A stretch of 22,628 nt of DNA, taken from positions 1 to 22,628 of the forward strand of contig JAISQQ010000278.1 of assembly GCA_031274075.1 (NCBI GenBank), read 5' to 3'. Every line of letters begins with the position of its first letter. Position 1 is the stretch's first letter. Below the pieces are notes generated by a model, which had not been told where the DNA came from, did no database searches, and saw only the letters and a program-made list of their open reading frames with translations. The DNA is from Accumulibacter sp. (GTDB lineage Bacteria > Pseudomonadota > Gammaproteobacteria > Burkholderiales > Rhodocyclaceae). Below are positions 887 through 18,808 of the stretch, in pieces. Both the position numbers and the translations under genes were made by a program.

Positions 887-1738
887 ATGTCCAGTTACAA
901 GCCGCTTTCTCAAGAAACGGTCAGGGAAATAACAACCGAATACTTTGCGGAACGCAAGGATAAAGGTCATGCCCAAGTCGAGCCTGTATTAGTCCTGGTC
1001 GGCGGACAGCCCGGCGCGGGCAAGACCGCGGCCGGACACATGGCCCGCGCCGAACTCGCCCGACGCGGCGGCTATGTCCACGTCGACGCCGACCGTATGC
1101 GTAGAAAGATCGATACGGGAGGCACCCGGCCAAGCTCGGAAGAAACACAGGCCGACGCCGGCAGACTCTCCACCGAACTGCGCAGAATCGCCGTGTTGGA
1201 AAAGCGGAACATCATCGAAGAAGGCACCTTGCGTAACGCGGAAGTAGCCGGGGCGTTCCTCGATGCCATGAAAAAAGAGGGCTACAAGGCAGAACTCCTT
1301 GCCGTAGCCACGCCACGCGAGGAAAGCCTGGTGGGTATCTATCAACGCTATGAGAAGCAGCACGCGCAAGGCACCGAAAATCCCCGCTTCGTTACGGAAC
1401 GCTATCACGACGAAGCCATGCAAGGCTTTGAAAAAACCCTGGCACAGAATGAAAGCAAGCTGGATCGCGTCCGGGTGATCGACCGCAACGGCCAGGTTCT
1501 TTACGACAGCGCCGACACCGGGAAGAGGCATGCTTCCGCGCTTCAGGCGCTCCAGGAAGGCCAGAAACTGACCGACAGAAAACTTTACGACATCGACCAA
1601 TCATGGTCATTCATCAAGGAAGCGGCGGCGCGGCGTAGCGCTGACCGAGACTATCTCGCGACCATCGAAGGCCACCAAGAGCGCATCGCCGACATGCAAA
1701 ATCCGCAGCGTCTTGGCGAAATCAAAAACCCCCAATGA
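887..1738 (+). CDS. Zeta-type toxin (P-loop kinase)
   Basis: A 283-residue zeta toxin family protein. It has the P-loop GGQPGAGKT (about residues 39-47), the strand-plus-acid YVHVDADRMRRK with candidate catalytic Asp67, and the NIIEEGTLRN segment near residue 110 that in zeta kinases lines the substrate site. Family members phosphorylate UDP-N-acetylglucosamine or related sugar nucleotides and so poison cell-wall synthesis. The length fits the single-domain proteobacterial type, and all key motifs are present, so it looks functional. It is coupled to the 88-residue gene just upstream. The last 26 bases overlap a small gene that starts at a TTG. Substrate is inferred from family only. Confidence 0.85.
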   Translation: MSSYKPLSQETVREITTEYFAERKDKGHAQVEPVLVLVGGQPGAGKTAAGHMARAELARRGGYVHVDADRMRRKIDTGGTRPSSEETQADAGRLSTELRRIAVLEKRNIIEEGTLRNAEVAGAFLDAMKKEGYKAELLAVATPREESLVGIYQRYEKQHAQGTENPRFVTERYHDEAMQGFEKTLAQNESKLDRVRVIDRNGQVLYDSADTGKRHASALQALQEGQKLTDRKLYDIDQSWSFIKEAAARRSADRDYLATIEGHQERIADMQNPQRLGEIKNPQ

Positions 1739-3125: not shown

Positions 3126-3338
3126 GGACGGCAGCAGACAGAGCCGCGGGAATGCGCGTATGCCTTTACTCGAATCGCGGAGTTGCGGCGCGATCCGGTG
3201 GAAGGCAAGTTCGACGCCGCGCGCCTGAAAGAAGTCCACCGCCGAATTTTCCAAGACCTGCCGCAACACGCGCCGTGCGAGTATCGTCCGGATGCGCCAA
3301 CCTACATCAAGGCGCGCGGCCTTGGACATTCGGGCTAA
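3120..3338 (+). pseudogene. Fic toxin N-terminal fragment
   Basis: From the ATG at 3120 the frame reads AYAFTRIAELRRDPVEGKFD followed by AARLKEVHRRIFQDLPQHAP and CEYRPDAPTYIKARGL. The LKEVHRRIFQDL block is the conserved entry helix of Fic-domain proteins (compare LKAIHRHLF in Fic family members). It ends after 72 residues at a TAA. The catalytic HPFxxGNGR motif and everything after it are missing, so it cannot AMPylate targets. It directly follows the second VbhA-type antitoxin, which is the natural gene order. Confidence 0.65.
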
Positions 3339-3360
3339 CCACCACCCGCAGGAGATTGGC

Positions 3361-3887
3361 ATGAAAGAGAAAACTACCGCAAGCAACCCGCCCGCCGCGG
3401 GTGAGGAGAACCCTGAACCGGCCTTGCTGGACGATGAAGGTCCGAGCGCGGATATTCCGCCCTTTATCACGACTACTAACGCCCTGGAACTGTACGACCT
3501 TCGTCCTGGCGAGATGGTTTCCGAAGCCATCGCGCGCAAGGCCAACACTCTGTCCGCCGCGAGCGATGACGACCCTGAACCGGCCTTCCTGGATGATAAA
3601 AGCCCGAGCGACGACGTTTCGCAACTCGTCGCTGCGGCTCACGCCGCGTATGAACTGATGGATCGGGACTTTGGCGAAACCGAGGCCGAAGCGGCGGCGC
3701 GCAGGGCCAGAACGCGCCGCCCCGTGAGTGATGACGACCCTAAACCGACCTTTCTGGACGATGAAGGCCGATGGATCCCGATGTCGTTCATTTCCGTACC
3801 GCCTCTATCATCGATCTGTTCGGCTGGAAGCCTGGCGAAACGCTGAAGGAGTCCATCGCCCGCAAGAAGGCGCAAGACGGTTGCTGA
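3361..3887 (+). pseudogene. Acidic triple-repeat protein with one-base frameshift
   Basis: AGGAG sits 7 bases before the ATG at 3361. The protein holds three units of about 54 residues. Each starts with a D/E-rich box (NPEPALLDDEGPS, DPEPAFLDDKSPS, DPKPTFLDDEG) and ends with a helix (LRPGEMVSEAIARKAN, DFGETEAEAAARRAR, KPGETLKESIARKKA). In unit 3 the frame breaks at GGCCG (3766-3770). Restoring one C gives EGPMDPDVVHFRTASIIDLF and then GWKPGETLKESIARKKAQDG before TGA at 3885-3887; without it the frame ends at 3846. The family is not recognised. The repeats suggest a protein-binding scaffold or an antitoxin-like partner. The single lost base may be real or a sequencing error. Confidence 0.65.
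3403..3887 (+). repeat. Tandem ~162-165 bp coding repeat, three units
   Basis: Anchors CCCTGAACCG at 3411 and 3573 and CCCTAAACCG at 3738 are 162 and 165 bases apart. Units 1 and 2 agree best in the first 35 bases and diverge toward the middle, so the duplications are old and kept by selection on the protein pattern. Confidence 0.8.
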
Positions 3888-4229
3888 CAGATGCCGATCA
3901 TTGAGAGCCTGTTCACGATTTTCTCTGGAAGCGCGCGGTGCACCCGTCCCGCTTTTGACCCGTGCCATGACACGGCCGCCGCTGTTTGGGGCGGGTGCCC
4001 CGCGCTCCCCAGGGTCATCGCACTCTCTCCATGAACGTAAAGTCGACCTGTGTGCGTGAAAACAGCGATGGTTCCGTAGGGCGGGAAAGCGCAGCGCCAA
4101 TGCCGGTCTGTCATATGAGGTTTATCATTAAAAAAAAGTCGCGCGATCATGTGACCATGTCCGAAAATGGCCAGATTTTGCTGGACGAGCCGTCATGATC
4201 GCGACCAGGATCAGGATCAGGAGGTGGAG
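3888..4229. other. Noncoding stretch with dispersed repeat
   Basis: No convincing gene. It holds the first copy of a palindromic dispersed repeat and its attached block (3925-4100), then about 130 bases with an A-rich run (near 4131-4138) and a short direct repeat AGGATC at 4207-4218 just before the glycosylase gene. This is the right boundary of the decayed island. Confidence 0.6.
3925..4100 (+). repeat. Dispersed palindromic repeat, copy 1 with attached block
   Basis: A degenerate long inverted repeat (3925-4012, arms starting CTGGAAGCGCGC and ending GCGCTCCCCAG) is followed by a unique-looking block. That block (CATCGCACTCTCTC, then GTGCGTGAAAACAGCGA, then GTAGGGCGGGAAAGCGCAGC) recurs at 18128-18206 in the same order and orientation. 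The two sites are 14 kb apart and unrelated in gene context, so this is an interspersed element. Confidence 0.75.
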
Positions 4230-5726
4230 ATGGCGGAGATTCCATTGGACAACGAAGACAGGGCCTGGTATGCGGCATTCAGGGCGAAGGACGCGCGATT
4301 CGATGGGCGTGTCTTCGTGGGGGTATCCTCTACGGGAATCTATTGCCGGCCGGTATGCCGGGCGAAGTTGCCGAAGGCCGGGAATTGCAGCTTTTATGGC
4401 ACGGCGGCGGCAGCGGAGCAGGCGGGCTTTCGTCCCTGTCTCCTGTGCCGGCCGGAACTCGCCCCCGGCAACGCGCCCGTAGACGCCGCTTCCTCTCTTG
4501 CCCACAGGGCGGCGAGGCTGCTCGAAGAAAGCCTGGGGATTGACCAGGGTATTGGGGAATTGGCCGGCCGGCTGGGTTATACGGAGCGCCATTTGCGCCG
4601 GGCATTTACAGCGGAATACCATGTTTCGCCGGTGCAGTATCTGCAAACGTGCAGACTGCTGCTGGCAAAGAGCCTGCTGACCGATACCGGCCTTTCGGTG
4701 CTCGACATTGCGATGGCGGCCGGCTTCGGCAGTCTGCGGCGTTTCAACGATCTTTTCAGGAAGCAATACCGGCTCCCACCGACGGCTTTGCGCAGGCAGG
4801 CCAAGGATACGCAAGGGCAGGACGGCGGCATGACCGTATCATTGGGATATCGTCCGCCATACCGCTGGCGGCAGATATTGGATTTTCTTGCCCTGCGCGC
4901 CATTCCCGGCGTGGAGACGATAAAGGATGGAATAGGGGATGGAATAAGCGATGGAGAGTATTTGCGCACCGTGCATTTTGAAAACGGGGAGCGGCCGATA
5001 TACGGCTGGGTGCGGGTAGGCCACCGGCCGCGAAAAAACGTCCTGTCCATTACTGTGAACGCCGCCCTGCTGCCGGTGCTGCCCCAAGTGCTGGCCCGGA
5101 TTCGCCACCTGTTCGATTTGTACTGTGTCCCGGACGCGGTGTATGAAATTCTGGCGTCGATGAACGATATCCGGCCCGGGCTTTGCGTTCCGGGCACTCG
5201 TTTGCCCGGCAGCTTCGATCCTTTCGAGATGGCGGTGCGGGCGGTGCTGGGACAGCAAATCACGGTAAAAGGGGCGCGGACGCTGGCCGCGAGGCTGGCG
5301 GAAGCTCATGGCCGTCCTGTGCAAACAGGGATTGAGGGCTTGACCCATGTCTTTCCATCGGCAAAAGACATCCTTGCCTTGGACGGCGCCATCGGCAATC
5401 GCCTGGGTCCGCTCGGCATTACCGGAGCGCGGGCAAAGACTATCCTGGAACTGGCCCGGACATTCGCGCGGGGCGATATGGATTTCGGGTTTTGTGCCAA
5501 GCCTGAAACAGAGGCGCGAAAACTCATGGCCATTCCCGGCGTCGGATCATGGACAGCGCAGTACATCGCCATGCGGGCGATGGGATGCCCTGACGCTTTC
5601 CCGCATACGGATCATGGAATAAGAAAAGCGCTCGCGCCAAGTACGCCAAAAGAAATATTGGAATTGGCGGAGGCGTGGCGTCCTTGGCGCGGCTATGCGG
5701 CGATCAATTTATGGAACTCTTTGTAG
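4230..5726 (+). CDS. Ada/AlkA fusion: DNA-3-methyladenine glycosylase 2
   Basis: A 498-residue protein that senses and repairs alkylated DNA. AGGAGG at 4219-4224 selects the ATG at 4230 over an in-frame upstream start at 4167. Order: Ada zinc domain (about 10-80) with ligands Cys39, Cys43, Cys70 and Cys73, of which Cys39 would accept methyl from phosphotriesters; AraC-type helix-turn-helix (about 90-185); AlkA N-domain (about 205-300); HhH-GPD glycosylase (about 330-495) with GIGSWTA-like hairpin IPGVGSWTAQYIAMR and catalytic Asp461 in PHTDHGIRKAL. The C-terminal WRPWRGYAAINLW is complete. It excises 3-methyladenine and similar bases and may activate its own operon when methylated. The Ogt gene follows 24 bases later. 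Confidence 0.9.
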   Translation: MAEIPLDNEDRAWYAAFRAKDARFDGRVFVGVSSTGIYCRPVCRAKLPKAGNCSFYGTAAAAEQAGFRPCLLCRPELAPGNAPVDAASSLAHRAARLLEESLGIDQGIGELAGRLGYTERHLRRAFTAEYHVSPVQYLQTCRLLLAKSLLTDTGLSVLDIAMAAGFGSLRRFNDLFRKQYRLPPTALRRQAKDTQGQDGGMTVSLGYRPPYRWRQILDFLALRAIPGVETIKDGIGDGISDGEYLRTVHFENGERPIYGWVRVGHRPRKNVLSITVNAALLPVLPQVLARIRHLFDLYCVPDAVYEILASMNDIRPGLCVPGTRLPGSFDPFEMAVRAVLGQQITVKGARTLAARLAEAHGRPVQTGIEGLTHVFPSAKDILALDGAIGNRLGPLGITGARAKTILELARTFARGDMDFGFCAKPETEARKLMAIPGVGSWTAQYIAMRAMGCPDAFPHTDHGIRKALAPSTPKEILELAEAWRPWRGYAAINLWNSL

Positions 5727-5750
5727 CGCGAGCGTAATGAAGGAGGAAGC

Positions 5751-6290
5751 ATGGTCTATTCAACGAAGTATTGTTCACCGCTGGGATCGCTGCTGCTGGC
5801 GAGCAATGGTGAAAGCCTCGTCGGCCTGTGGATGGATGGACAAAAGTATTTTGGCGGCACAGTGACGGAAGCTATGGCCGAAAAGCCGGATTTGCCGCTG
5901 TTCGCCGCCGCGAGAAACTGGTTGGACGCCTATTTCGCCGGGCGGAAGCCGGCTATCTCCGATTTGTCCCTCGCTCCGAACGGCGGCGCGTTTCGCACAA
6001 TGGTATGGAATATACTGCGCGAAATTCCCTATGGGGAGATCGTCACTTATGGCGAGATCGCGAGGATCGTGGCCGCGCGGACGAACAAGGCGAGTATGTC
6101 CGGCCAGGCCGTCGGCGGGGCGGTGGGACACAATCCCATCTCCATCGTCATTCCGTGTCATCGGGTCGTGGGATCGAACGGCAGCCTGACCGGCTATGCT
6201 GGCGGTATAGACCGGAAAATCAGGCTGCTCGAGCATGAAGGCGTGGACAGGGCGGGCTTGTTTGTACCGGCGAAGAGCGCCGCGCCCTAG
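5751..6290 (+). CDS. ogt: Methylated-DNA-protein-cysteine methyltransferase
   Basis: A 179-residue suicide repair protein that moves methyl from O6-methylguanine (and O4-methylthymine) to its own cysteine. The active site PCHRV places the acceptor at Cys136. Upstream blocks IPYGEIVTYGEIA and GGAVGHNPISIVIPCHRVVG fit the DNA-binding domain, and GYAGGIDRKIRLLEHEG closes it. The N-terminal domain (1-75) is the short type found in Ogt. AGGAGG lies 5 bases before the ATG. Together with the preceding fusion protein it forms a compact alkylation-response operon covering base excision, phosphotriester sensing and direct reversal. Confidence 0.92.
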   Translation: MVYSTKYCSPLGSLLLASNGESLVGLWMDGQKYFGGTVTEAMAEKPDLPLFAAARNWLDAYFAGRKPAISDLSLAPNGGAFRTMVWNILREIPYGEIVTYGEIARIVAARTNKASMSGQAVGGAVGHNPISIVIPCHRVVGSNGSLTGYAGGIDRKIRLLEHEGVDRAGLFVPAKSAAP

Positions 6291-6976: not shown

Positions 6977-9900
6977 TCATTTGCGGGCGACACACGCGGA
7001 TACGCCGCTATCCGCCCACGCCAACAGATAGCTTCTGACCGTCGCCAAATGGTTGGCGATATGGTCCGTATGGCGAAGGTTCAGATCAGCCGCTTTTCGA
7101 GGATCGCCGCTGCCCAGCGCGCCAAGCATGGCGATGACCAGCAGGTGCTCGCGGGTCATAGGGGCAAGATTATTGGCATCGGGCAGCGACAATACCGCTT
7201 CAGCTTCCCGCAACATGACGTGAGGGTCACGGGCCGCGGTCGCCGCATAGCTTCGCATGAGCGCCGCCGCCAAGGGCGTGCGCAACACATTGGCCGGCAG
7301 CCAGTCCGGGGCGGGCTGCCAGATGCCTTGCAAATCTTCCGCTGGCAGCGCGCCGATGGAAAATTCCGCCAGCATGGAGAGGGCGGCGCTCCATTCCCGT
7401 ATCTGCACGGGTGTATCACTGGATGCCTGTTGCATGACAGAAAGGGCATGGCTGATATCTTGCGCATCCTGGGGCAGGTTCCGTTTGAATTCAGCGCTCG
7501 TTCGCCCTTGCCGGATGGCGTCGATGACCTGTAATGCCAGGAATCGCCGCTTGCTGAATGAATGCGCTGAATTGATGACTTGCGCCTTGGCGCCGGAAGG
7601 AACGCGGCAATCCAGAATATCCAGCACCGGCAGGCCATTGCTCGCCAAGTCGTAAAGGAAGGTGGCGCTTTGATTCTGAAACCGCGTCCGGGGTGCGTTG
7701 AGCGAGACTTCCGGGTAATAATCGGAGTGCGCCTGGGCGCCGAACAGGCGGGCATATTGGCGAATGACTTCGCCGCCGCCAATCCGGCGCAAGGCGATGT
7801 CATTCAGACTGCCAAAGCCTACACGGCGCAACTCCGCCACCAGAGCCGCCTCGTTCCAGGGAGCGTCCAAAAACGGGGTAGCCAGCCGCCCCTTGGGCGC
7901 AAGAATCAACAGGTCGGCGCCACCATCGACCGTATACAGTTCCGCGTTCGGGAATTCGCTCACGAGCGCCGCGAGCATGGTGGCGACCAGCGGATCATTG
8001 ATTTCGTAGGTATGCAGCCACTGCACCAATATGCCTTCTTCCTTGAGATGGCGCTTCAAAAAACGGTAGAACTCGACCGTGAACAAATTGGCGACGCCGC
8101 TCACCCAGGGATTGGAAGGCTCGGAAACGATGGCATCGTACTGGCGCTGGCCGGTCGAGAAAAAGGTGCGGGCATCGTCGATGCGCACCTGCGAGCGCGG
8201 ATCGGTATACGCGCGTTCAACCCGCGGGCCAAACGCCCTGGCCGCGTCGTACATGACTTTTTCAATCTCGATCGTGTCGACCCGCCGCGGGATGGAACTC
8301 CCCAATACCGTATGCGTGCTCAAACCGGAACCCCAGCCAATGAGCGCCACGTCCTTCGGCGACGGGTGCGCGACCAGAGGCATGATGCCCAGCATGATCA
8401 TGGTAGACTCATCCAGCGTAGGTGGCTGGTCGAATGGCGTCATGCCGGCATCGGGTTTGCCATTGGTCGCAATACCCGTCTTATGTGTGTTTTTATAGGT
8501 GTAAATAGCGACAGTCGCGGTTTTCCCGTCTTTCAGGAAAGGTACGGAGGCATCTCCGCCAAATCGTACCTGCCCTGTGCGAAATACGCCCGCGGCCTGC
8601 ACGGCAGGATCGACCTGCCCCAACTTCAGGCTGACGCCCATCGCAATTACCATACCCGCTGCCGCGGTCGCCACGCCGGGCGTCATCCGGGCCGGGCTCA
8701 GCACTCTCAGCAGATAAAGCCCCAATACCACATCGACCAGCGCCGCCAGCGTCAGGCCCAGTTTCACTCCGATGGCGGGGATCAGGACATGCACCATCAT
8801 CACGACGCCCAGAATGGCTCCCAGCGTATTGGCGGCGTAGATGCGGCCAATGGCGCGTTCGTCGGCTCCGGCGCGCAGCAAGGCCATGGTGAAAAGCGGC
8901 AGCGTCATTCCCGCGAAGAACGCGGCGGGGAACATGACCGCCAGAGAAATTACGGCGGTTCCCAGTTCAAACAGGGTATAGCCGTTATCCGTTTGCGCCA
9001 GCCCTTCCATCATCCAGCCAACCCAATGAAAACTCCGGGCAAAAACCGGAATGGAAAGCAGCGCGGCAATACCCATCAACACCTGAACGTAAGCAACATA
9101 ACAAACAGGATCGTCAATCTGGCGGCTGCGACGGCGGATCCACAAACCGCCAAACGCCAGCCCCAGAATAAAGGCCGTCAACATCAATTCAAAGCTGTGG
9201 ATGGAACTGCCCAGCGCCTGATTCAACATGCGCACCCAGCCAAGCTCATAGACGAACGAGGTCGCGCCGGAAATGGCGGTCGACAGCAGCATGACTTTTC
9301 CGAGTCTCCGAACCTCTTCGTCCCGGGCCGGGTCATTTGTTGCGGGGGCGACGCGGGGGGAGGATAAAGAGAGAGATAAGGAGGGAGACACGGGCGCCGC
9401 CTGCGCGCCCTCCCGCATTCCGGCGCTGACCAGCCATGCCCCCAGCCCCACCACGATATTCAGGCCGCCGGCGGTCATCACGGTTCCGGGCAAGCCGAAG
9501 GCGGGCAACAACAGGAACGTGGCGACCAGCGCCCCCAACGCAGCGCCCAGGCTGTTGGTGAAATACAACCCGCCGAGGATTTCACCATCCTGCCGCGGCG
9601 CAATCCGCAGATAACCCGCGCTCAAAAGCGGAAAGGTTGCCCCCAATAACAGGCTCTGCGGCAAAATCAGGAGCGCGGCGGTCGCCCATTGATAGGCATG
9701 GGCAATGCCTTCGCTATCCAGCAGAGGCAGGATATTTTCCTGGGATATCCGGGTATAGGTCTGGAAAATTCCCTGAAACGACAATCCAACGATGCCGATC
9801 AATAATTCAACGAAGGCATATCCCATGACCAGCCGCCGCCAGTTCGGGGTCTTGCGGCTGACAAACCACGCCCCCAGCGCCATGCCGCCCATGAAAATCG

Positions 9901-10051
9901 ACAGCACCAGCGTTTGCGCATACGCCGCGTGTCCCAGGGTCAGCCCCAGATATTGCGACCATACCGATTGATAGATCAACCCGGCAAAACCGGAAATGAT
10001 GAACAGCGTCAGTAAAAGCCTGCCCGCCCATGCGGGGGAAAGTGTGCGCAT
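6977..10051 (-). CDS. Membrane-fused spermidine synthase-like protein
   Basis: A 1,024-residue protein. Start ATG at 10051 is chosen for GGAG 6 bases upstream; an in-frame ATG at 10081 lacks one. The first half has about 12 membrane helices in two blocks (LLLTLFIISGFAGLIYQSVW opens the first) joined by a loop near residues 225-260. The second half has a spermidine-synthase-like Rossmann domain with VALIGWGSGLSTHTVL, an acidic strand end (DTIEIEKVM) and VSEPSNPWVSGVANLFT. The SEPSN in place of the usual DxxDP suggests it does not use putrescine, so true polyamine synthesis is doubtful. A helical C-terminal tail of about 200 residues follows. It lies 94 bases after the vWA gene on the same strand and may be read from it or from its own promoter near 10085. 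Confidence 0.85.
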   Translation of the reverse strand: MRTLSPAWAGRLLLTLFIISGFAGLIYQSVWSQYLGLTLGHAAYAQTLVLSIFMGGMALGAWFVSRKTPNWRRLVMGYAFVELLIGIVGLSFQGIFQTYTRISQENILPLLDSEGIAHAYQWATAALLILPQSLLLGATFPLLSAGYLRIAPRQDGEILGGLYFTNSLGAALGALVATFLLLPAFGLPGTVMTAGGLNIVVGLGAWLVSAGMREGAQAAPVSPSLSLSLSSPRVAPATNDPARDEEVRRLGKVMLLSTAISGATSFVYELGWVRMLNQALGSSIHSFELMLTAFILGLAFGGLWIRRRSRQIDDPVCYVAYVQVLMGIAALLSIPVFARSFHWVGWMMEGLAQTDNGYTLFELGTAVISLAVMFPAAFFAGMTLPLFTMALLRAGADERAIGRIYAANTLGAILGVVMMVHVLIPAIGVKLGLTLAALVDVVLGLYLLRVLSPARMTPGVATAAAGMVIAMGVSLKLGQVDPAVQAAGVFRTGQVRFGGDASVPFLKDGKTATVAIYTYKNTHKTGIATNGKPDAGMTPFDQPPTLDESTMIMLGIMPLVAHPSPKDVALIGWGSGLSTHTVLGSSIPRRVDTIEIEKVMYDAARAFGPRVERAYTDPRSQVRIDDARTFFSTGQRQYDAIVSEPSNPWVSGVANLFTVEFYRFLKRHLKEEGILVQWLHTYEINDPLVATMLAALVSEFPNAELYTVDGGADLLILAPKGRLATPFLDAPWNEAALVAELRRVGFGSLNDIALRRIGGGEVIRQYARLFGAQAHSDYYPEVSLNAPRTRFQNQSATFLYDLASNGLPVLDILDCRVPSGAKAQVINSAHSFSKRRFLALQVIDAIRQGRTSAEFKRNLPQDAQDISHALSVMQQASSDTPVQIREWSAALSMLAEFSIGALPAEDLQGIWQPAPDWLPANVLRTPLAAALMRSYAATAARDPHVMLREAEAVLSLPDANNLAPMTREHLLVIAMLGALGSGDPRKAADLNLRHTDHIANHLATVRSYLLAWADSGVSACVARK

Positions 10052-10145
10052 GTAAAACTCCGCTGGTTTGGAATGTGGCAATCATAATAGGGTGCCTTCG
10101 ATTCTGCGGGAAGGCGCTTTTGCAGGAAGCCGTGCGCGACCCCGT

Positions 10146-11399
10146 TCAGCCGTCGCCCCGCTCCTCCGCCCGCGCCACCTTGATGTCCGCGGCCGCCGCC
10201 CAGGCGGCGATGTCTTCGCGTCTCAAGGCGGCCGCCATCATGTCCGGGAACAGGTCTGGCGTGCAGGCGAAGGCCGGGATGCCGAGCGCCGCGACTTTGG
10301 CGGCGGTGGAGGCGGAGTAGCCGGGCCGCCCCTGGTCGGTGAGCGCGAGCAGCACGATGATGTTGACGCCGCTGCGCGCCAGCGCCGCCAGACGGCGCAG
10401 CAGGTCGTCCTCGTTACCGCCTTCGTAGAGATCGGTGATCAGCACGAAATGGGCCTTGGCCGGATGTTCGATGCGCCCGGCGCAGTAGGCGACGGCCTGG
10501 TTGATGTCGGTACCGCCGCCGAGCTGGATGCCGAACAGGACTTCGACCGGATCGGCCAGATCGTCGGTGAGATCGACGATGGCCGTGTCGAAACAGACGA
10601 GCCGGGTGCGCACCACCGGGATCGAGGCCATCACGGCGGCGAAGATGGAGGCGTAGATCACCGAACTCGCCATCGACCCCGACTGGTCGACGCACAGCAC
10701 GACTTCGTCGAGATCGACGAGGCGGCGCTGCCTGCGCATAAAGCCGATGAGCTTTTCGGGCACCACGGTCTTGTGCTCGGGCTGGTAGTGGCGCAGGTTG
10801 GCGCCGATGGTGCGCGGCCAGTCGATGTCGCGGTGGCGCGGGCGGAAGGTGCGCCGGGCGCGATCGAGCGCCCCCCGGATGGCTTCCGCCGTCTGGCGTT
10901 CCAGGCGTTCCATGAGTTTGGCGACGATTTCGGCGATGACCTGACGCGCCATTTGCTTCGTTTTGTCCGGCATGATGCCGCGCAGCGAAACGAGGTCGGC
11001 CACGAGGTTGACGTCCTGCTCCACCGCCGCGAGGAATTCCGGCTCCATCAGCATTTGTTTGAGGCCGAGGCGCTCGAAGGCGTCTTTTTGCACGATCTGC
11101 ACGACTTGCGACGGGAAAAATCCGCGCAGGTCGCCGAGCCAGCCCGCGATGGCCTTGGGCGAGGAGCGTTGAAGGCCGCCGCGCCGGTTCTTTTTCTCTT
11201 CGTCGCCGTCGCCATAAAGGGCGGTCAGCGCCATGGAAAGTTTGCGGTCGCGCTCGGCAAGCGCCTCTTCGCCAGCGCCGAGGGTCAGGCGCCAGCGCCG
11301 TTCGCGCGCGCTGGCGCCGCCGTCGTCGTCGAGGGAAGGGTGGCGGGCCTCGTCGCCTTCGGGCCGGGCCGCGGTCTGGGTTGTTTCATCCATCGGCAT
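10146..11399 (-). CDS. vWA-domain protein of MoxR operon (CoxE-like)
   Basis: A 417-residue protein. The vWA domain occupies about residues 230-400 with a complete metal site: DQSGS (238-242), Thr297 in LGGGTDIN and Asp323 in VLITDLYEGG. The first 220 residues are helical and charged and contain TFRPRHRDIDWPRTI, typical of vWA proteins paired with MoxR ATPases. Such proteins bind a partner through Mg2+ and act as adaptor for the ATPase. AGGA lies 5 bases before the ATG at 11399; a second ATG at 11393 is possible. The start overlaps the DUF5682 stop by 14 bases, so translation is probably coupled. It is the last gene of the five-gene set. Confidence 0.9.
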   Translation of the reverse strand: MPMDETTQTAARPEGDEARHPSLDDDGGASARERRWRLTLGAGEEALAERDRKLSMALTALYGDGDEEKKNRRGGLQRSSPKAIAGWLGDLRGFFPSQVVQIVQKDAFERLGLKQMLMEPEFLAAVEQDVNLVADLVSLRGIMPDKTKQMARQVIAEIVAKLMERLERQTAEAIRGALDRARRTFRPRHRDIDWPRTIGANLRHYQPEHKTVVPEKLIGFMRRQRRLVDLDEVVLCVDQSGSMASSVIYASIFAAVMASIPVVRTRLVCFDTAIVDLTDDLADPVEVLFGIQLGGGTDINQAVAYCAGRIEHPAKAHFVLITDLYEGGNEDDLLRRLAALARSGVNIIVLLALTDQGRPGYSASTAAKVAALGIPAFACTPDLFPDMMAAALRREDIAAWAAAADIKVARAEERGDG

Positions 11400-13770
11400 T
11401 GTTTCCTGTGAGCAGCGGGTGCAGGATATTCAGGTGCGCTTGCCATCCCGCGCCGCCGTCCGGCGCGGGAACGAGGTGCGCCGGCAGGCTCGGCCCCCGA
11501 CCCAGCGCCGCCGCGAGCAGGCGCTTGCGCTCCATGCTGTCCAGCCCGGAGAACACCCGGCGCAGCAGCGGCAGGTGCGCGGTGAAGTCGTCCTCGTCGA
11601 GGCCGGTGAGCCATCCGTCGACGGCGCGGCGCAAGCCTTCGTCATGGGCCAGACGCATGGCGGAAGCGGAGAAAAAGCCTTCGAGGAAACCGGCGGCGTC
11701 CACAACCGGCGTGCCCGGCGACAAGCGCCGTTCGAGCAGCGTCACGGCCTCGTCGGCGGCAAGGGCTTCCGCCTCGTAGAGGATATGGGCGGCGCGTCCG
11801 GCGACGCGGGGCGTGGCGCGGGCGTCGCCGAGCACCGCTTCGAGTCCGCGGAACCATGCTTCCAGGATGTCTTGCGGCGCTTCGATGAGGCGGATGCCGG
11901 CGTGGGCCGCCGAAATCCGTTCCGTCATCTCGCCAGCAGCCTCGGCGTCAAGCTCCCGCGCCGCGTGCGGCAGATTGATCGCGGCTTCCACAATCAGGCG
12001 TTGCAGCAGGACGCCCAATTGCCCGAGGCCGGAAGTAGAAGCGGAAGAGGAAGTAGAAGCAGAAACGCGCGCATCGCCATAACGAACGATGTCGGCAAGC
12101 GGCGGGATGGCGGCGAGCATTTCGGGACAGTTGGAGGAACGCGCCGCTCTTTCCTCGAAGAGCGCGAGTCCGCGGGACGCCGCGACCGGCAGGCTGGCGG
12201 TGATGGCGGTGCGGATCAACTCGGCCAAAGCGTCGAGCGCGGCGGCCTGACCAAGCTGTTCGGCCAGATAAGCGCTGGCGGCCTGTTCGATGGTCGCGCC
12301 GTAGACGAGCTTTTCGACCAGTTGAACGGCATACTCCGGCTCCCAGGCGAGCATCCAGCGTTCGCGGAAGGTGCCGCGGCTGCCGCCCTTGTCCAGCAGC
12401 CTGCCCCACGGCACGCCGAGCACGAGCAGACGGTGCAGCAGGGTGGAGCGGAACAGCCCGCTTTCGCTGCGCAGGTCGATGGCGAGTTCGCGCTCCAGCG
12501 CCTCGGGCTTCAGCCGCGCCGCCTTCTGATGGCGTTGGAGATCCTCGATCAACGGGGCGAGCGGCGCGTCGGCCGGAATTTCGCCGACCTCGTTGCCGAG
12601 CAGCAAAGTGTCCTCGATGGTTTTCCACAACAAGGCCTCGCCGCCGAAGAGACAGGCGACCGCGGCTTCGCGCAGTTCCTCGAAACCCGCGCCGGGCCGG
12701 GAGCGGATGGCGGCGAGCGCCAGCGCCAGACGCTCGGCCTCGATCAACGCGGCGGTCGAGACGAGGTGGCCTTTCTCGCGCAGGATGTACGCGATCCGGG
12801 TCAGCCAGCGGCTGGCGCCGTCGCGCCGCGCGCGGGTGTGCCAGACATGGGCGCACCAGCCGGGCGCATCGACGCCCGCGCCGTAGCCGTGGGCAAAGGC
12901 AAGGCGCGGCATCGTCCACGGCGCCCAGGTCATGGCGGCTTTCTTGCGCGGCAAGCCCTTGAGCAAGGCGCGGTCGTCCTTTTGCGCGACTGCGCCTTGC
13001 AGCGCCGGTACGTGCCACGCGCCGCAGACCACGGCGAGCGGGCCTTCGTGCCGCTTGCGCGCCGCGGCGATGGCCAGACGCATGTGCGCTTCGCGTTTGG
13101 CCTCGAATTCCGGCAAGTGCGCCAGATCGGCGCGCAGCGCGTTCATGGCGTCGGCGATGGCGCTGAAGATCGGGCCGGGAGCCGGGTTTTGTTCGATGAG
13201 ATCGGCCCACCAGCTTTCGCCGTCCTCATAGCCAGCCGCTTCGGCCAGCACGCCGACCGGATCGCGGAATTCTGGCGGCAGCGCAGGCGGCAACGCGGCG
13301 GCGGGCGCTTCGGGTTCTTGCGCCGCCGCTTCTGCCGTTTCTGCCGTTTCCGCCGCCGTTTCCACCATTTCCGCCGCCGTTTCCACCGTCTCCGCCGGGG
13401 GAGACGCATCCGTTGGCTTTGCGGGTTTTTCCACGAAGCGGGCGGTGGATGGCAGGTCGATGAATTCGACCGGCACGCCATTTGCCATCGCCCACAAGGT
13501 CGCCTGATATTCGGGCGAAAACTCCGCGAAAGGCCAGAAACTGGCTTGCGAAGGGTCGTCTTCCGGGTAACAGAGCAAGGCGACCGGCGGCTTCATCGCG
13601 GGCGAGGCCAGCATCGGCAGGAGGGCGGAAGCGTCGGCCGGGCCTTCGATCAACACCGCGACAGGCTTTTGCTCATCGAGCGCGCGCACGAGGCTCGCCG
13701 CCGAACCGGGGCCGTGATGGCGAATGCCGAAGAAGGAAACCGCATCGAGCGCGGAGGCGTCCTTGCCCAT
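11386..13770 (-). CDS. DUF5682 protein, TraB/TIKI/EreA-like hydrolase candidate
   Basis: A 794-residue protein. Near the N-terminus FFGIRHHGPGSAASLVRAL (13-31) precedes the strand PVAVLIEGPADAS with Glu42. Further on come EYQATLWAMANGVPVEFIDL (88-107), REAHMRLAIA (226-235) and LAVVCGAWHVPALQ (245-258) with His253. This order, a GxxH-type entry, an acidic strand end, an R/E helix and a GxxHV strand, is what TraB/TIKI/EreA metallo-hydrolases show, so I infer that fold for residues 1-260. Residues 127-168 are an Ala/Glu/Thr/Pro linker with ETAAE repeats. The rest is helical and conserved in the family but not assigned. It follows the MoxR stop by 3 bases. Substrate unknown. Confidence 0.85.
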   Translation of the reverse strand: MGKDASALDAVSFFGIRHHGPGSAASLVRALDEQKPVAVLIEGPADASALLPMLASPAMKPPVALLCYPEDDPSQASFWPFAEFSPEYQATLWAMANGVPVEFIDLPSTARFVEKPAKPTDASPPAETVETAAEMVETAAETAETAEAAAQEPEAPAAALPPALPPEFRDPVGVLAEAAGYEDGESWWADLIEQNPAPGPIFSAIADAMNALRADLAHLPEFEAKREAHMRLAIAAARKRHEGPLAVVCGAWHVPALQGAVAQKDDRALLKGLPRKKAAMTWAPWTMPRLAFAHGYGAGVDAPGWCAHVWHTRARRDGASRWLTRIAYILREKGHLVSTAALIEAERLALALAAIRSRPGAGFEELREAAVACLFGGEALLWKTIEDTLLLGNEVGEIPADAPLAPLIEDLQRHQKAARLKPEALERELAIDLRSESGLFRSTLLHRLLVLGVPWGRLLDKGGSRGTFRERWMLAWEPEYAVQLVEKLVYGATIEQAASAYLAEQLGQAAALDALAELIRTAITASLPVAASRGLALFEERAARSSNCPEMLAAIPPLADIVRYGDARVSASTSSSASTSGLGQLGVLLQRLIVEAAINLPHAARELDAEAAGEMTERISAAHAGIRLIEAPQDILEAWFRGLEAVLGDARATPRVAGRAAHILYEAEALAADEAVTLLERRLSPGTPVVDAAGFLEGFFSASAMRLAHDEGLRRAVDGWLTGLDEDDFTAHLPLLRRVFSGLDSMERKRLLAAALGRGPSLPAHLVPAPDGGAGWQAHLNILHPLLTGNNADG

Positions 13771-13773
13771 GCG

Positions 13774-14853
13774 TCAGACCGCTTCGTTGAGCGCCGCGTA
13801 ATAGGCGGAATAGCCGCTGCGTTTCTTCAGCACCGTTTCCAGATATTCTTCCAGCACCGCCTTGTCCTGCACCGGGTCCTTGATGATCGCGCCGACCATG
13901 TTGGCGGCCAGTTCCTGCGCCGTGAGGCTGCCATCGTTGAACCACGCCGCCTGCGACAGGCCACCGACCACGGTGGCGATGGCTTCTGCCGTAGAGAGCG
14001 AGCCGGACGGCGTCTTCAGCGTGGTCTTGCCATCGGCGGTGGCCCCGGCGCGCAGTTCCCGGAAAATCGTGAGCACGCGGCTGATTTCCTCCTGCACGTT
14101 CTTCGGCACCGGCAGCGAGAGACTGACGGCCATCTCGGAGACGCGCCGGGCGACGATGGCGACTTCCTCGTCCATATCGTCGGGCAGCGGCAGCACCACC
14201 ACGTTGAAGCGGCGTTTCAGGGCCGAGGACAATTCGTTGACGCCCTTGTCGCGGTTGTTGGCGGTGGCGATGACGTTGAAGCCGCGCCGGGCGTAAATCG
14301 CGCTATTGAGTTCGGCGACCGGCATCATTTTTTCCGACAGCACCGTAATCAGCGTGTCCTGAACGTCCGACCCCATGCGGGTCAACTCTTCCAGACGGCA
14401 GAGCTTGCCGTCCTGCATGGCGCGAAAGAGCGGCGTCGGCACCAGCGCCTCTTCGCTCGGCCCTTTGGCGAGCAGTTGCGCGTAGTTCCAGCCGTAGCGA
14501 ATCTGGTTCTCGTCGGTGCCCGCAGTGCATTGGATCAGCATGGTCGAGTCGCCGGTGATCGCCGCCGCCAGATGTTCGGACACCCACGATTTCGCCGTCC
14601 CCGGCACCCCGAGCAAGAGCAAGGCGCGGTCGGTGGCGAGCGTAGCGACCGCCGTCTCCATCAGGCGGCGGCGGCCCACGTACTTGGGCGAGATCACCGT
14701 GCCGTCGCCCGCCTTGCCGCCCAACAGGTAAGTGAGCACGGACTGGGGCGAGAGTTTCCAGTTCTCGGGCTTGTTGGCGTCGTCACCGCGCGCCAGGGCT
14801 TCGAGTTCGAGCGCGTAGGTCTGTTCGGCGGGGAGGCGGAGAAGGTCGGACAT
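13774..14853 (-). CDS. MoxR-type AAA+ ATPase
   Basis: A 359-residue ATPase. Walker A is GVPGTAKS (82-89); the Walker B segment is KLCRLEELTRM, where the usual Asp-Glu is Glu155-Glu156; sensor 1 is NVIATANNRDKG (193-204); the arginine-finger region is SSALKRRFN (209-217). MoxR proteins form rings that use ATP to remodel a client, often delivering metal or assembling a complex with a vWA partner, which is encoded two genes downstream. GGAG lies 8 bases before the ATG. It is the central gene of the five-gene operon. The Glu-for-Asp change may be normal for this DUF5682-linked branch. Confidence 0.92.
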   Translation of the reverse strand: MSDLLRLPAEQTYALELEALARGDDANKPENWKLSPQSVLTYLLGGKAGDGTVISPKYVGRRRLMETAVATLATDRALLLLGVPGTAKSWVSEHLAAAITGDSTMLIQCTAGTDENQIRYGWNYAQLLAKGPSEEALVPTPLFRAMQDGKLCRLEELTRMGSDVQDTLITVLSEKMMPVAELNSAIYARRGFNVIATANNRDKGVNELSSALKRRFNVVVLPLPDDMDEEVAIVARRVSEMAVSLSLPVPKNVQEEISRVLTIFRELRAGATADGKTTLKTPSGSLSTAEAIATVVGGLSQAAWFNDGSLTAQELAANMVGAIIKDPVQDKAVLEEYLETVLKKRSGYSAYYAALNEAV

Positions 14854-14870
14854 TGATGGACTCCAGAAAA

Positions 14871-14908
14871 AATTTCAGCCTTGAATTTCAGCTTTGAATT
14901 CAGCCCTA
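14871..14908. repeat. Three imperfect 13-bp direct repeats
   Basis: AATTTCAGCCTTG, AATTTCAGCTTTG and AATTCAGCCCTA follow each other between the DUF5691 stop (overlapping it) and the MoxR ribosome site. AT-rich in a very GC-rich operon. May bind a regulator or simply be slippage. Confidence 0.6.
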
Positions 14909-16390
14909 TACGGCGGCGTTCGCCAGTTCGTAATTCAGGCGCAGGAAAGCGAGCGCGGGGTTGGCCGGGAAGATGCCGAACGACGCGGCCAGATCGTCGA
15001 TCACCGCCCTGGCGGCCTCGGCCGTGGCTACCCCGGCGAAAAGGTTGACCAGGGCAAGCGCGAGCGGGGTTTTGTCTTCCCGCATTTGCCCCTTGATGTC
15101 GGACTTGAGCGCGCCGTAGATGCGGCTGGACAGAATGTCCCCGGCCTGGGCGAGGTCGCCGTGTTCGATGCGCGACAGGTATTGGATATTCTGGATATTC
15201 TGTCCCGCGAGAATTTTTTTCATCACCCGTTGCTGAGCGGCGCGATCCAGCCGGGGCAGCAAGACGGGCAGGGACGGGTTCAGCTCCTTTTCCGCGACGA
15301 GCCGGTTTGCCATGAGCCGGTTCGCCAGACGCGCGACGAACTCATCGGCGGAACTCTGCGCCGCCATCCGCGCCACGCAGTCATCCGCCGCTGGCGTCAG
15401 CATCGACATATCCTGACCGCCGAATTGCCAGCCGTCGATGAATTCGGCCTCGGTCAGCCCGAGCGCGGCGGCAAGTTCCATCAGTGAGGACTGGTCGCAC
15501 AATTCCGCGCGCCGCGCCGCTTGCGCCTGCGATTTCAGGGGTTTCGCGCTGACGGCTGCGTTGCGCTTGAAAAAGCCCTTGCCGCCGCGCTCGAAAAATC
15601 CGGCGAGTTCGGCCAAATCTTCCGGCGAGAGACCTGTGCCCGCGCTCGCCTGCCGCAAACGGGCGAGCAGACGCGCCGCCAGCGCCTTGATCTTGCCGGA
15701 GCGGTCGCTGGCGAGACTTTGCAGGTAAGGCGCATCACCATCGCCCAGCCCGATGGCCAGCGTTTCGATCAGCGCCAGCCGTTTCTCCGCCGCTTCCTGC
15801 CCGGCGCGGGCGGCGATGAGCACCAGCGCGCGCGCCGGTTCCTGCCGGCGCATGGCCTTGAGCAACAGGCGGCGCTGCGCGGGGTAGAAGCTGTCCCAGG
15901 TGTCCTCGTTCAATTCGTCGCCGCCCCCGCCCTTATCCTTATCCTCCTGATCCAGCGACTGCGCCCAGTCCTGCCAGGGCGCGTAGAGATCGGGCACATC
16001 TTCGCTCGACGCGGCGGGCATCCAGTCGAGCGGATGGGCGGAAAAGCCGCGCCGTTCCGCAAGGCGCAGCACGGCGTAGCGGTCGTTGCCGGGCGCTTGC
16101 CGGAGCGCGTGGCGAAACAATGGGCGCAGGCGGTCGGGGAGGGTCGGCAGCGCGAGACGGGGCAAGTCTTTTTGCCGCGCGGCATCCTTGGGCAACGCGG
16201 GGCGGAAGGCCACCTCCCACGCTTGCCCGGCGAGCGCGGCGAGGCGGCGCTCGCCCTCCGCGGCGCTGACCCCGGCGATGAGCGGACGCCACGCCTCGGG
16301 CGTCAGCGCGGCGGCGCTGCCGCCAGTGATCCAGCAATCGCGGATGGCGGCGAGCGGTATGGCCAGTTGTGCGGCCAATTGCGCATTCAT
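14906..16390 (-). CDS. DUF5691 protein
   Basis: A 494-residue, soluble, mainly helical protein. The start at 16390 overlaps the SWIM stop as ATGA, which selects it over an in-frame start at 16453. The block DTWDSFYPAQRRLLLKAMRR, then LIETLAIGLGDGDAPYLQSL and DRSGKIKALAARLLARL, looks like HEAT-type helical repeats of DUF5691. Residues near 140-155 are an acidic Gly-rich loop (EDKDKGGGGDEL). DUF5691 genes are known by their place beside SWIM, MoxR, DUF5682 and vWA genes; no activity is known. A scaffold or client-binding role in the complex is inferred from the helical repeats. Confidence 0.82.
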   Translation of the reverse strand: MNAQLAAQLAIPLAAIRDCWITGGSAAALTPEAWRPLIAGVSAAEGERRLAALAGQAWEVAFRPALPKDAARQKDLPRLALPTLPDRLRPLFRHALRQAPGNDRYAVLRLAERRGFSAHPLDWMPAASSEDVPDLYAPWQDWAQSLDQEDKDKGGGGDELNEDTWDSFYPAQRRLLLKAMRRQEPARALVLIAARAGQEAAEKRLALIETLAIGLGDGDAPYLQSLASDRSGKIKALAARLLARLRQASAGTGLSPEDLAELAGFFERGGKGFFKRNAAVSAKPLKSQAQAARRAELCDQSSLMELAAALGLTEAEFIDGWQFGGQDMSMLTPAADDCVARMAAQSSADEFVARLANRLMANRLVAEKELNPSLPVLLPRLDRAAQQRVMKKILAGQNIQNIQYLSRIEHGDLAQAGDILSSRIYGALKSDIKGQMREDKTPLALALVNLFAGVATAEAARAVIDDLAASFGIFPANPALAFLRLNYELANAAV

Positions 16391-17796
16391 GACAGATCGA
16401 GCCTCCCGAATGGACTTTGCGCGGCGAGCAGATCCAGCCGCATCCCGTTCCACAGCCCGACCGTCGCGCCGAGCGCCATGCCGAGCACGGGCAACGGTGC
16501 TTCACGCGCCAACGGCAGGCCGATTGATTCCGCACCGGCCTCCGCCCGCCACCAGCAACGGCCCCCCTTGTCCCTGACGATGCGCCCCGGCGGCAGGGCG
16601 AGCGGCCATTCAATCTCCCACGGCCTGCCGTTCCAGAACGGCAGGCAGGGCGACAGCGGATCGGATGTGGCGTTGGATACAAAACCGGTATCCCGCCAGG
16701 GCAGGCATGTTTGTGCCGGCGAGCGTTCGACCACCAGCGCGCGCAAGGGAACCGGCGAGGCATAGAACGCCAGCGCGGCCTCGAACTGTTCGCCCGCGAT
16801 GAAGGATTCCGAACGCTTGCCGGCGGAAGCGGGATAAAAATCGAGCAACAAGGCGTAGCGGCACTCTTCCGGCTTCAGGTTCATCAGCCAGGTGGCGTGG
16901 CGAACCAGACCGTCGCGGCGCGTCTGGATTTTCTCGCCCAGCACCTCCCACGCGCTGCTGACCACCCGCGTATCCGGGTGGCCGATGACCTGCTCGCGCG
17001 TCTCGGAAGCCGCCACCTGCCGCCGGACTTCCGGGTCATCCGGCCGGGCGGCCCACGCCTTGATCAGGAGCACGAGCTTGCCCAGTTCGCGGATGGCGGC
17101 TTCCGGGCGTTCCTCGTTGCGCAATTCGAGCAAGCGGGCCGGCATCTCGTCGATGCGCGAAGCCAGCGCCGCCGCCTTCTGGTCGACCAGGCGCGCGGCG
17201 ATGCGGCGGCAGCGTTCGCTGGCGTCATCGACGAACGCGGCCAGCCCCAGGCGCAACTGATCGTTGATCCACTGTTCGAGTTCTTCGAGCGCGCCAGCAA
17301 TGGCCGCGCGCGTATTTTCGGCCCGCTTTTCCCGCGCCGCTTCCCGCCGCGCCGCCGCTTTGGGATCTTCCGCTGCCGCCGTCTCCACCATCTCCGTCGT
17401 TGGAATGGCGGCGATGCTCTTGCCGCCGGAAGACGCGGCAGGCTCGTCGCCCCCGCCTCCGCCGCCACCCTTGCGCCGCCTGCCGAGCCAGTCCGTCACC
17501 CATTCCGGCGGCGCGCCCGTCTGGAAGCTTACGGCGCCGTCCGCGCCGAGCCACATCAAGGCCAGCGCGTGCTTGCAAGGAAATTTGCGCGACGGGCAAG
17601 TGCATTTGTAGCCCCTGTCGCCAGCATCGACGATAACGCGGTAAGGATTCGCCCCCGACCCCTGGCATTCGCCCCAGTAAAGCTCGCCATCACGCTCCAG
17701 CCGCGCCCACTTGCCCGCCTTGGCAAGCTTGGAAGCCGCGCCAAGCGAAGCCTGATCGGGCGCAAGCGCTTCAATGGTCTTGAGGTCGAACGGCAT
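16387..17796 (-). CDS. SWIM zinc-finger protein
   Basis: A 469-residue protein, first gene of the operon. The SWIM finger CTCPSRKFPCKH (65-76) has the CxCx6CxH ligands and should bind zinc, and possibly nucleic acid or protein. It is followed by LALMWLGADGAV, a Gly-rich linker (about 109-116) and an EMVETAA stretch (135-141) that also occurs in DUF5682. The rest is helical (DDASERCRRIAARLVDQKAA) and ends in a beta-rich domain. Start 17796 (MPFDLKTIEAL) matches the family N-terminus better than the in-frame 17859. No strong ribosome site is seen. A TTGACA lies at 17859-17854 on this strand, but no good -10 follows at the right distance. Confidence 0.88.
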   Translation of the reverse strand: MPFDLKTIEALAPDQASLGAASKLAKAGKWARLERDGELYWGECQGSGANPYRVIVDAGDRGYKCTCPSRKFPCKHALALMWLGADGAVSFQTGAPPEWVTDWLGRRRKGGGGGGGDEPAASSGGKSIAAIPTTEMVETAAAEDPKAAARREAAREKRAENTRAAIAGALEELEQWINDQLRLGLAAFVDDASERCRRIAARLVDQKAAALASRIDEMPARLLELRNEERPEAAIRELGKLVLLIKAWAARPDDPEVRRQVAASETREQVIGHPDTRVVSSAWEVLGEKIQTRRDGLVRHATWLMNLKPEECRYALLLDFYPASAGKRSESFIAGEQFEAALAFYASPVPLRALVVERSPAQTCLPWRDTGFVSNATSDPLSPCLPFWNGRPWEIEWPLALPPGRIVRDKGGRCWWRAEAGAESIGLPLAREAPLPVLGMALGATVGLWNGMRLDLLAAQSPFGRLDLS

Positions 17797-17863
17797 CTTG
17801 GCACGGCGGACGATTCGCTGAAGCACCGGAGCCTGACAGAAAGACCGGGATCGTGTCAATGTT

Positions 17864-17953
17864 CAGAAGACAGAGTTCAGAGGACAGAAGACAGGGGACA
17901 GAGGACAGTAATATTTGCGGGCGCGAAGCGCCCGGTGACTGGACTGTCGTCTG
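17864..17953 (+). repeat. Heptamer-hairpin element, left copy
   Basis: Degenerate 7-base units (CAGAAGA, CAGAGTT, CAGAGGA, CAGAAGA, CAGGGGA, CAGAGGA) are followed by TAATATTTG and the hairpin GCGGGCGCGAAGCGCCCGG, then ACTGGACTGTCGTCTG. The same arrangement occurs in reverse orientation at 18695-18782, and a shorter relative at 22028-22090. Confidence 0.8.
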
Positions 17954-18045
17954 ATCAGCGAAAGCGCGCCAAGAAGCTGTTTGCGATCTTCTCTGGGAGC
18001 GTGGGTATCTTGCCCATCATGTGAAAGCCTCTCTCCGAGCCACTT

Positions 18046-18213
18046 CTGGGAGCGCGGGGCACCAGCCCCGCAACGGCGGCGGCAGTGTCATTCCCGCTGT
18101 TGCGGGGCTGGTGCCCCGCGCTCCCAGGGCCATCGCACTCTCTCAATGAATCGACTGGTGCGTGAAAACAGCGACGGTTGGGTAGGGCGGGAAAGCGCAG
18201 CGCCTCCCGCCGA
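18046..18213 (+). repeat. Dispersed palindromic repeat, copy 2 with attached block
   Basis: Arms 18046-18079 and 18094-18127 are complementary at 33 of 34 positions around a 14-base loop, beginning CTGGGAGCGCGGGGCACC. The following block (CATCGCACTCTCTC, GTGCGTGAAAACAGCGA, GTAGGGCGGGAAAGCGCAGC) matches the block after copy 1 at 4013-4100. Confidence 0.85.
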
Positions 18214-18326
18214 TCCTGTTCACGGCGCAACGCGCCGCACGATTCAAAGGCCGCCGAATAATAGAGACGGCGGCGATGCCGCCGGAGAGAACGACCGGCG
18301 GGAGGCGCTGCGCTTTCCCGCCCTAC
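18182..18326. repeat. Perfect 31-bp inverted repeat
   Basis: 18182-18212, starting GTAGGGCGGGAAAGCGCAGC, is repeated exactly in reverse complement at 18296-18326. The 83 bases between hold smaller palindromes (GGCGCAACGCGCC, CGGCGGCGATGCCGCCG). The pair could fold into a long stem in RNA or act as ends of a small nonautonomous element. Confidence 0.85.
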
Positions 18327-18363
18327 GATTTCCCGCCGGGAAGGCCGGCCGGGTTTGGGGTTC

Positions 18364-18445
18364 CTGGGAGCGCGGGGCTTCCGCCCCGCAACGGCGGGAA
18401 TGACACGACCAACGCTGTTACGGGGCGGGCGCTCCGCGCTTCCAG
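18364..18445. repeat. Dispersed palindromic repeat, copy 3
   Basis: Left arm CTGGGAGCGCGGGGCTTCCG and right arm ending CTCCGCGCTTCCAG form a degenerate version of copies 1 and 2, here without the attached block immediately after. The right edge reads CCAGAGAAGATCGC, the reverse complement of the GCGATCTTCTCTGG found at 17984-17997. Confidence 0.75.
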
Positions 18446-18503
18446 AGAAGATCGCCATCGGCTTCCTGGAGCGTTTCAGTGCGGACAGCGGCTATTTCGA
18501 TCC

Positions 18504-18575
18504 CGTCATTCCGGCGCAAGCCGGAATCCAGGAATTTGAGGTACGCACTGGGTCCCGGCTTGCACCGGGACGACG
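18504..18575. repeat. REP/MITE-like element with terminal inverted repeats
   Basis: CGTCATTCCGGCGCAAGCCG opens a 28-base end (18504-18531), and the other end (18548-18575, finishing TGCACCGGGACGACG) is its inverse at about 22 of 28 positions. Each end is itself a small hairpin. This CGTCATTCC...GGAATCCAG form is common as an interspersed repeat in proteobacteria. Confidence 0.8.
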
Positions 18576-18652
18576 CGCTTATGCTCATACCACAGTTCAT
18601 GCGATGAAATACATCGATACTCGACCCGAAAACGCGCTAAATTGCCTTTATC

Positions 18653-18808
18653 CTCATTCTCCATGACTACCCATCTTTTCGTGGCGTCTGTTTTCAGAGG
18701 ACAGAAGACAATCCAGTTACCGGGCGCTTCGCGCCCGCAAATATTACTGTCCTCTGTCCTCTGTCCTCTGTCCTCTGAACTCGTTCTCCATGACTACCCA
18801 TCTTTTCG
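18653..18808 (+). repeat. 25-bp direct repeat flanking the right heptamer-hairpin element
   Basis: TTCTCCATGACTACCCATCT plus TTTCG occurs at 18657-18681 and 18784-18808, 127 bases apart. The inverted heptamer-hairpin copy lies between them. It looks like a target duplication or a local segment duplication. The second copy lies just before the kinase start. Confidence 0.8.
18695..18782 (-). repeat. Heptamer-hairpin element, right copy (inverted)
   Basis: Four exact TGTCCTC units lie at about 18747-18776 beside the hairpin CCGGGCGCTTCGCGCCCG and AATATTA. Read on the minus strand it matches 17873-17953 over about 80 bases, with only a few changes in the heptamers and at the far end. Confidence 0.85.

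Follow-up and report, generated by a model that had tools for sequence, protein, structure and literature searches.

A putative DUF5691-bearing form of the Escherichia coli yehLMPQ locus, with a MoxR-type ATPase and a vWA partner, in an Accumulibacter genome

Introduction

What work is done by a MoxR-type ATPase and a vWA protein that are encoded together with a SWIM zinc-finger protein and members of the families DUF5691 and DUF5682? The question is raised by a stretch of 22,628 nucleotides from Accumulibacter sp. (the window; assembly GCA_031274075.1, contig JAISQQ010000278.1, number 360 in a draft genome of 3.18 Mb with 88.7% completeness), the minus strand of which carries five open frames in the order SWIM, DUF5691, MoxR, DUF5682 and vWA. 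An earlier note made from the sequence alone described the run as an operon of unknown function and drew a parallel with MoxR-vWA conflict systems. On the evidence of sequence the set is best classed as a YehLMPQ-type locus in a DUF5691-bearing form, and the N-terminal domain of its DUF5682 protein is predicted to adopt a TIKI/ChaN/Ere-type fold.

The five-gene locus and its conservation

The SWIM and DUF5691 genes join in an ATGA overlap, gaps of 52 and 3 bases separate DUF5691 from MoxR and MoxR from DUF5682, and the DUF5682 and vWA genes overlap by 14 bases. All five proteins exceed their Pfam cut-offs, with 29.4 bits for SWIM (against a cut-off of 19.6), 66.6 for DUF5691, 127 for AAA_5 in the MoxR protein, 688.7 for DUF5682 and 183 for VWA_CoxE. 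The MoxR motifs GVPGTAKS and EEL are intact, as are the metal-ion-dependent adhesion site (MIDAS) motifs DQSGSM, GGGTD and ITDL of the vWA protein, and close to its N-terminus the SWIM protein bears the motif CTCPSRKFPCKH, of the CxC...CxH type. The SWIM frame is open from a TTG at 17859, upstream of the ATG at 17796. A scan for promoters and terminators gave results at chance level.

A scan of named genomes, in which the best 80 loci out of 569 with confirmed DUF5682 were kept and close relatives are over-represented (34 of the 80 are Mesorhizobium), found the same five-gene order in 74 loci, which by their labels include alpha-, beta- and gammaproteobacteria, Bacteroidota and Acidobacteria-type bins. 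Four of the six incomplete loci (L041, L074, L081 and L097) are cut by contig ends, a fifth (L086) shows no MoxR match in the 0.8 kb that precede it on its contig, and for the last (L096) none of MoxR, DUF5691 and SWIM is present in 6.5 kb of upstream sequence. Across the named loci all 75 SWIM frames have the CxC...CxH pattern. All 76 vWA frames have D-x-S-x-S-M, and 74 of them have GGGTD; of the 78 MoxR frames 76 have EEL and 69 match the one Walker A pattern that was used. A search with DUF5691 gave 59 proteins at E<=1e-3 (8000 candidates scored, own protein counted).

Of 398 genomes from the phylum, the window's own among them, 14 have DUF5682 over the cut-off and 7 have DUF5691, with two more DUF5691 matches below it. 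All seven DUF5691 genomes are among the 14 with DUF5682, and in each the two matches share a contig and strand and are no more than some 2.5 kb apart. SWIM, DUF5691 and DUF5682 genes thus accompany MoxR and vWA in the loci examined rather than occurring mostly apart from them. The claims of the earlier note regarding the locus itself hold in these respects: the five frames and their spacings are as described and their order, kept at 74 of 80 loci in a sample of close relatives, is beyond chance; the MoxR-vWA pair and the SWIM zinc-finger protein are borne out by domains and motifs; and the products may be said to belong together as one co-inherited cassette, backed by shared order and co-occurrence across loci.

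Among 119 relatives the set occurs in six. DUF5682 has a single match within its own draft genome, and in the genus (28 genomes) it is matched in that genome, G398 and G408. G398 has the five genes in the same order, its SWIM frame reaching the contig end, and the ratio of non-synonymous to synonymous substitution rates (dN/dS) against it is 0.13 for MoxR, 0.21 for vWA, 0.25 for DUF5682, 0.29 for SWIM and 0.40 for DUF5691. The copy in G408 is eroded: most of DUF5682 and part of vWA are gone and the contig ends inside MoxR. Such patchy occurrence fits a stress or niche function that is gained and lost, and proves none. As a separate observation, four loci in bins labelled Propionibacteriaceae, Micrococcales and Bifidobacteriaceae (L041, L051, L053 and L056) hold DUF5682 proteins 54-61% identical to that of the window, by either transfer or mis-binning.

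Table 1. Positions of the genes of the cassette and of the DUF5682 domains in the window
Feature	Position	Strand	Remarks
SWIM zinc-finger protein	16387..17796	-	469 aa from ATG 17796; Pfam SWIM PF04434
DUF5691 protein	14906..16390	-	494 aa; Pfam PF18944
MoxR-type AAA+ ATPase, YehL-like	13774..14853	-	359 aa; AAA_5 PF07728
DUF5682 protein, YehM family	11386..13770	-	794 aa; Pfam PF18934
DUF5682 N-terminal alpha/beta domain, residues 1-314	12829..13770	-	predicted TIKI/ChaN/Ere-type fold
DUF5682 C-terminal helical region, residues about 445-757	11500..12438	-	
vWA protein, VWA_CoxE family, YehP-like	10146..11399	-	417 aa; Pfam PF05762

Relationship to yehLMPQ of Escherichia coli

In E. coli K-12 the order of the region is yehI-yehK-yehL-yehM-yehP-yehQ, and Pfam assigns DUF4132 to yehI and then, past the small yehK, a MoxR-type AAA_5, DUF5682, VWA_CoxE and SWIM. 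The window and E. coli therefore share MoxR, DUF5682 and VWA_CoxE genes of identical Pfam families in equal order, with a SWIM gene alongside, but the exact E. coli gene content is not reproduced. The SWIM gene of E. coli lies 3' and its product is larger, with a pair of SWIM-like motifs; upstream there are DUF4132 (yehI) and WGR-family (yehF, PF05406) genes; and DUF5691, present in the window, did not come up when five E. coli proteins were scanned with Pfam, which is why the locus is termed a variant. As a candidate relative of DUF4132, DUF5691 was rejected, hhalign giving 1.2% and sequence kinship being undetectable.

Aligned over 366 columns, the MoxR protein of the window shows 43% identity to YehL of E. 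coli, compared with 24% over 101 columns (E 0.063) for the N-terminal part of RavA, and of the MoxR proteins of its own genome one gave E 2.7 (L211) and the other (L212) no row at E<=10, so that it is nearer to YehL than to these other MoxR proteins. The original survey naming the YehL subfamily of MoxR is said to be that of Snider and Houry. YehL is a named MoxR subfamily (PMC3893208), and with yehLMPQ as its E. coli counterpart the reading of the set as unknown is not supported. The counterpart is also common: of 5426 complete E. coli genomes searched, 5301 have a match to yehLMPQ, 5162 of them to at least 80% of the region.

Other DUF5682 genomes show the E. coli-type form as well. Eight loci (L113-L117, L119, L132 and L133) have YehI-type (DUF4132), MoxR, DUF5682 and vWA genes, one (L120) has MoxR, DUF5682, YehI-type twice and vWA, and another (L118) has MoxR and DUF5682 with no YehI-type match, the contig ending there. 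A SWIM-like CxC...CxH frame stands beside vWA in six of the eight loci L113-L120, as also in E. coli; of three such frames put to Pfam two were over the SWIM cut-off and one had no match. WGR was found by Pfam in two of four DUF4132 proteins, E. coli YehI being among the two without it. Both forms occur within single genomes (G196, loci L109 and L113; G490, loci L131 and L133). In a tree of DUF5682 the E. coli-type sequences are one group (support 1.00), and in a MoxR tree the DUF5691-type proteins split from all others (support 1.00), RavA and the two own-genome MoxRs attaching within the E. coli-type part.

The DUF5682 protein

The whole DUF5682 protein was modelled with a predicted local distance difference test (pLDDT) of 88.2 and a predicted template modelling score (pTM) of 0.84. 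A structure search with the whole protein was dominated by the helical C-terminal part, on which nearly all rows fell, and the N-terminal domain was therefore modelled separately. The resulting model, in which a linker at about residues 112-160 is of low confidence, has the common alpha/beta core of the TIKI/TraB/ChaN/Ere superfamily, and its top named fold match is the haem-binding ChaN; a search of PDB sequences with the DUF5682 profile gave one row, at E 0.89. The domain is thus predicted to have a TIKI/ChaN/Ere-type fold, a prediction that supports the earlier label of possible hydrolase.

The superfamily has a 2His/2Glu motif (PMC6254334). H253 of the window protein aligns with the G-x-x-H of both the ChaN and the TraB profiles and is kept in 67 of 67 sequences. 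We take the G-x-x-H histidine to be the catalytic His of the superfamily. H18/H19 and E42, candidates for the first His and the second Glu of the motif, are likewise present in 67 of 67 and are located where the first and the second strand end, the profile alignments stopping short of these residues. The resemblance to the superfamily lies in the predicted fold and in conserved, candidate His and Glu residues, but DUF5682 adds some 300 helical residues, is tied to MoxR-vWA and has no evident first Glu of the motif (E-x-H), an invariant R17 and no Glu standing directly ahead of H18-H19.

Proposed mechanism and alternative explanations

The best explanation of the whole, which we hold tentatively and put a little short of evenly balanced, is a YehLMPQ-type locus in which MoxR-vWA would remodel DUF5682 upon input from SWIM and DUF5691. 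We infer that the AAA+ ring and its MIDAS-bearing vWA partner act as chaperone and adaptor for DUF5682, the N-terminal domain of which may be a hydrolase of peptide or ester bonds or a carrier of metal or haem, and the C-terminal helices of which would serve to bind partners. Remodelling at the expense of ATP would supply DUF5682 with metal or make its active site accessible. Input would reach DUF5682 through the SWIM protein and DUF5691, and in the E. coli-type form DUF4132 would replace DUF5691 as the input part, with a WGR domain at some loci. WGR is a DNA-end-binding domain in PARPs. In view of the DUF4132 input part and the WGR of some loci, the most likely input is damage to nucleic acids or some related stress. 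The same is suggested by Deinococcus radiodurans, in which depletion of the DNA-damage repressor DdrO strongly upregulates the WGR protein DR2173 and the DRA0165-DRA0166 operon, DRA0166 carrying DUF4132; according to the same source MolR has been described as a member of the LexA regulon (PMC8533742). LexA-type boxes gave no support for damage as the input, numbering 65 in the window against 52 expected and 8 in E. coli against 7.4, with no exact site.

RavA-ViaA, NorQ-NorD and CoxD-CoxE resemble the cassette in that a MoxR-type AAA+ protein adjoins a vWA partner with an intact MIDAS, but here the partners are the dedicated DUF5682, SWIM and DUF5691 proteins and no recurring enzyme client is seen in the flanks. 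The published view is that a MoxR protein and its vWA partner bring about the maturation or activation of a dedicated complex, as for CoxD, NorQ and RavA-ViaA (PMC3893208), and the roles of CoxD and NorQ favour the rival that survives best, which is possible if on the whole unlikely: that MoxR-vWA insert metal into a client enzyme in the manner of NorQ-NorD and CoxD-CoxE, DUF5682 being a ChaN-like carrier of metal or haem and not a hydrolase. The VWA_CoxE family of the vWA protein, the ChaN match and the match of MoxR to NorQ structures (E 8.5e-8, behind Midasin at 6.5e-15) are in keeping with such maturation; however, no oxidoreductase was seen to accompany the cassette as a client: of the similarity groups in the flanks of 45 loci the most frequent occurs in 8, and by eye the groups look generic (ABC ATPase, LysR-type regulator etc.).

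A bolder proposal, rather improbable as it stands, would make DUF5682 a cytosolic TIKI-fold protease or esterase that is kept inactive and switched on by MoxR-vWA, with SWIM plus DUF5691 or SWIM plus DUF4132/WGR as interchangeable damage-sensing inputs. It is doubtful that DUF5682 is a catalytically dead TIKI-fold scaffold within a nucleic-acid-binding stress complex. The Glu that is not evident, the large helical region and the SWIM and WGR partners would suit a scaffold, but two His, one Glu and several further polar residues do not vary at all among the 67 sequences, which come from both forms.

There remains the parallel with conflict systems, in which DUF5682 would be the effector of an anti-phage or other biological-conflict system like the MoxR-vWA ternary systems. 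These have MoxR, vWA and a third protein, as here, but the third protein here is DUF5682 and not VMAP, an inactive STAND, FtsH or a beta-propeller (PMC7159879); at E<=0.01 none of the five proteins matched VMAP, FtsH or a beta-propeller in Pfam, its nSTAND3/6 matches falling, under cut-off, on the MoxR ATPase itself. In the paper on the ternary systems SWIM, YehL, TraB and EreA do not occur (PMC7159879). vWA-MoxR-VMAP is named in a CRISPR mining paper, where SWIM appears too, in a separate mention (PMC10910872). PADLOC gave no match to the five proteins at E<=0.01, and at E<=1e-10 the flanks of 17 loci yielded seven models and eight matches in 105 genes against nine models and ten matches in 103 control genes (126 control genes were called, of which 103 were used, and these cover 13 of the 16 stretches, in the same genomes as the loci; genes of at least 150 aa from a rough frame caller, one control stretch perhaps holding a real Qat system). 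The flanks are not enriched over controls, and the idea of a defence island was rejected. DUF5682 is rare in phage records (1 of 50,697) and in those of plasmids, where 20 of 72,556 have it; all 20 are classed as non-mobilizable and several are as large as a chromosome. A conflict system is accordingly very unlikely, the MoxR score of 27.5 bits, 0.5 bit above the bpMoxR cut-off of 27, and the patchy occurrence (14 of 398 genomes in the phylum, patchy also within the genus, with one eroded copy) being outweighed by the absence of PADLOC matches, the unenriched flanks, the rarity on phages and plasmids, the missing third-part domains and the near-ubiquity in E. coli (5301 of 5426).

Other features of the window

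Downstream of the cassette, at 6977-10081 (-), lies a 1034-aa fusion of a membrane part and spermidine synthase, close copies of which (72-75%) occur among the 28 genus genomes, besides that of the window, only in G398 and G408, which have the operon or its remnant, on other contigs. At 4167-6290 (+) an Ada-type fusion (Ada zinc domain, AraC helix-turn-helix, AlkA) is followed by an O6-methylguanine methyltransferase, the two forming an alkylation-repair pair, and near the left end, at 887-1738 (+), there is a gene for a Zeta-toxin-like kinase (Pfam 158 bits). The intergenic stretch 17868-18787 holds nested, REP- or MITE-like inverted repeats, with 86-nt arms 92% complementary (17868-17953/18702-18787) a hairpin at 18046-18127 and a 47-nt copy (94%) at 4052-4098/18158-18204. 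At 3395-3769, inside the frame 3292-3846, there are direct repeats 162-165 nt apart with three copies of a 46-nt core.

Novelty and significance

The K-12 yehLMPQ genes are annotated as putative or uncharacterised. A search for DUF5682 and DUF5691 found no paper naming either; among the matches listed, no title concerned the function of yehP, yehM, yehQ or yehI and no paper had both MoxR and Tiki. In the window a known but uncharacterised locus thus takes a new form, and the fold assignment was not found in print. Placing DUF5682/YehM in the TIKI/ChaN/Ere fold, as the model predicts, would provide candidate active-site residues (H18/H19, E42 and H253), and with point mutants of these in K-12 the role of an entire MoxR subfamily could be put to the test. 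If the proposal of a switched TIKI-fold enzyme were true, a stress-activated, AAA+-gated hydrolase would be present even in E. coli K-12.
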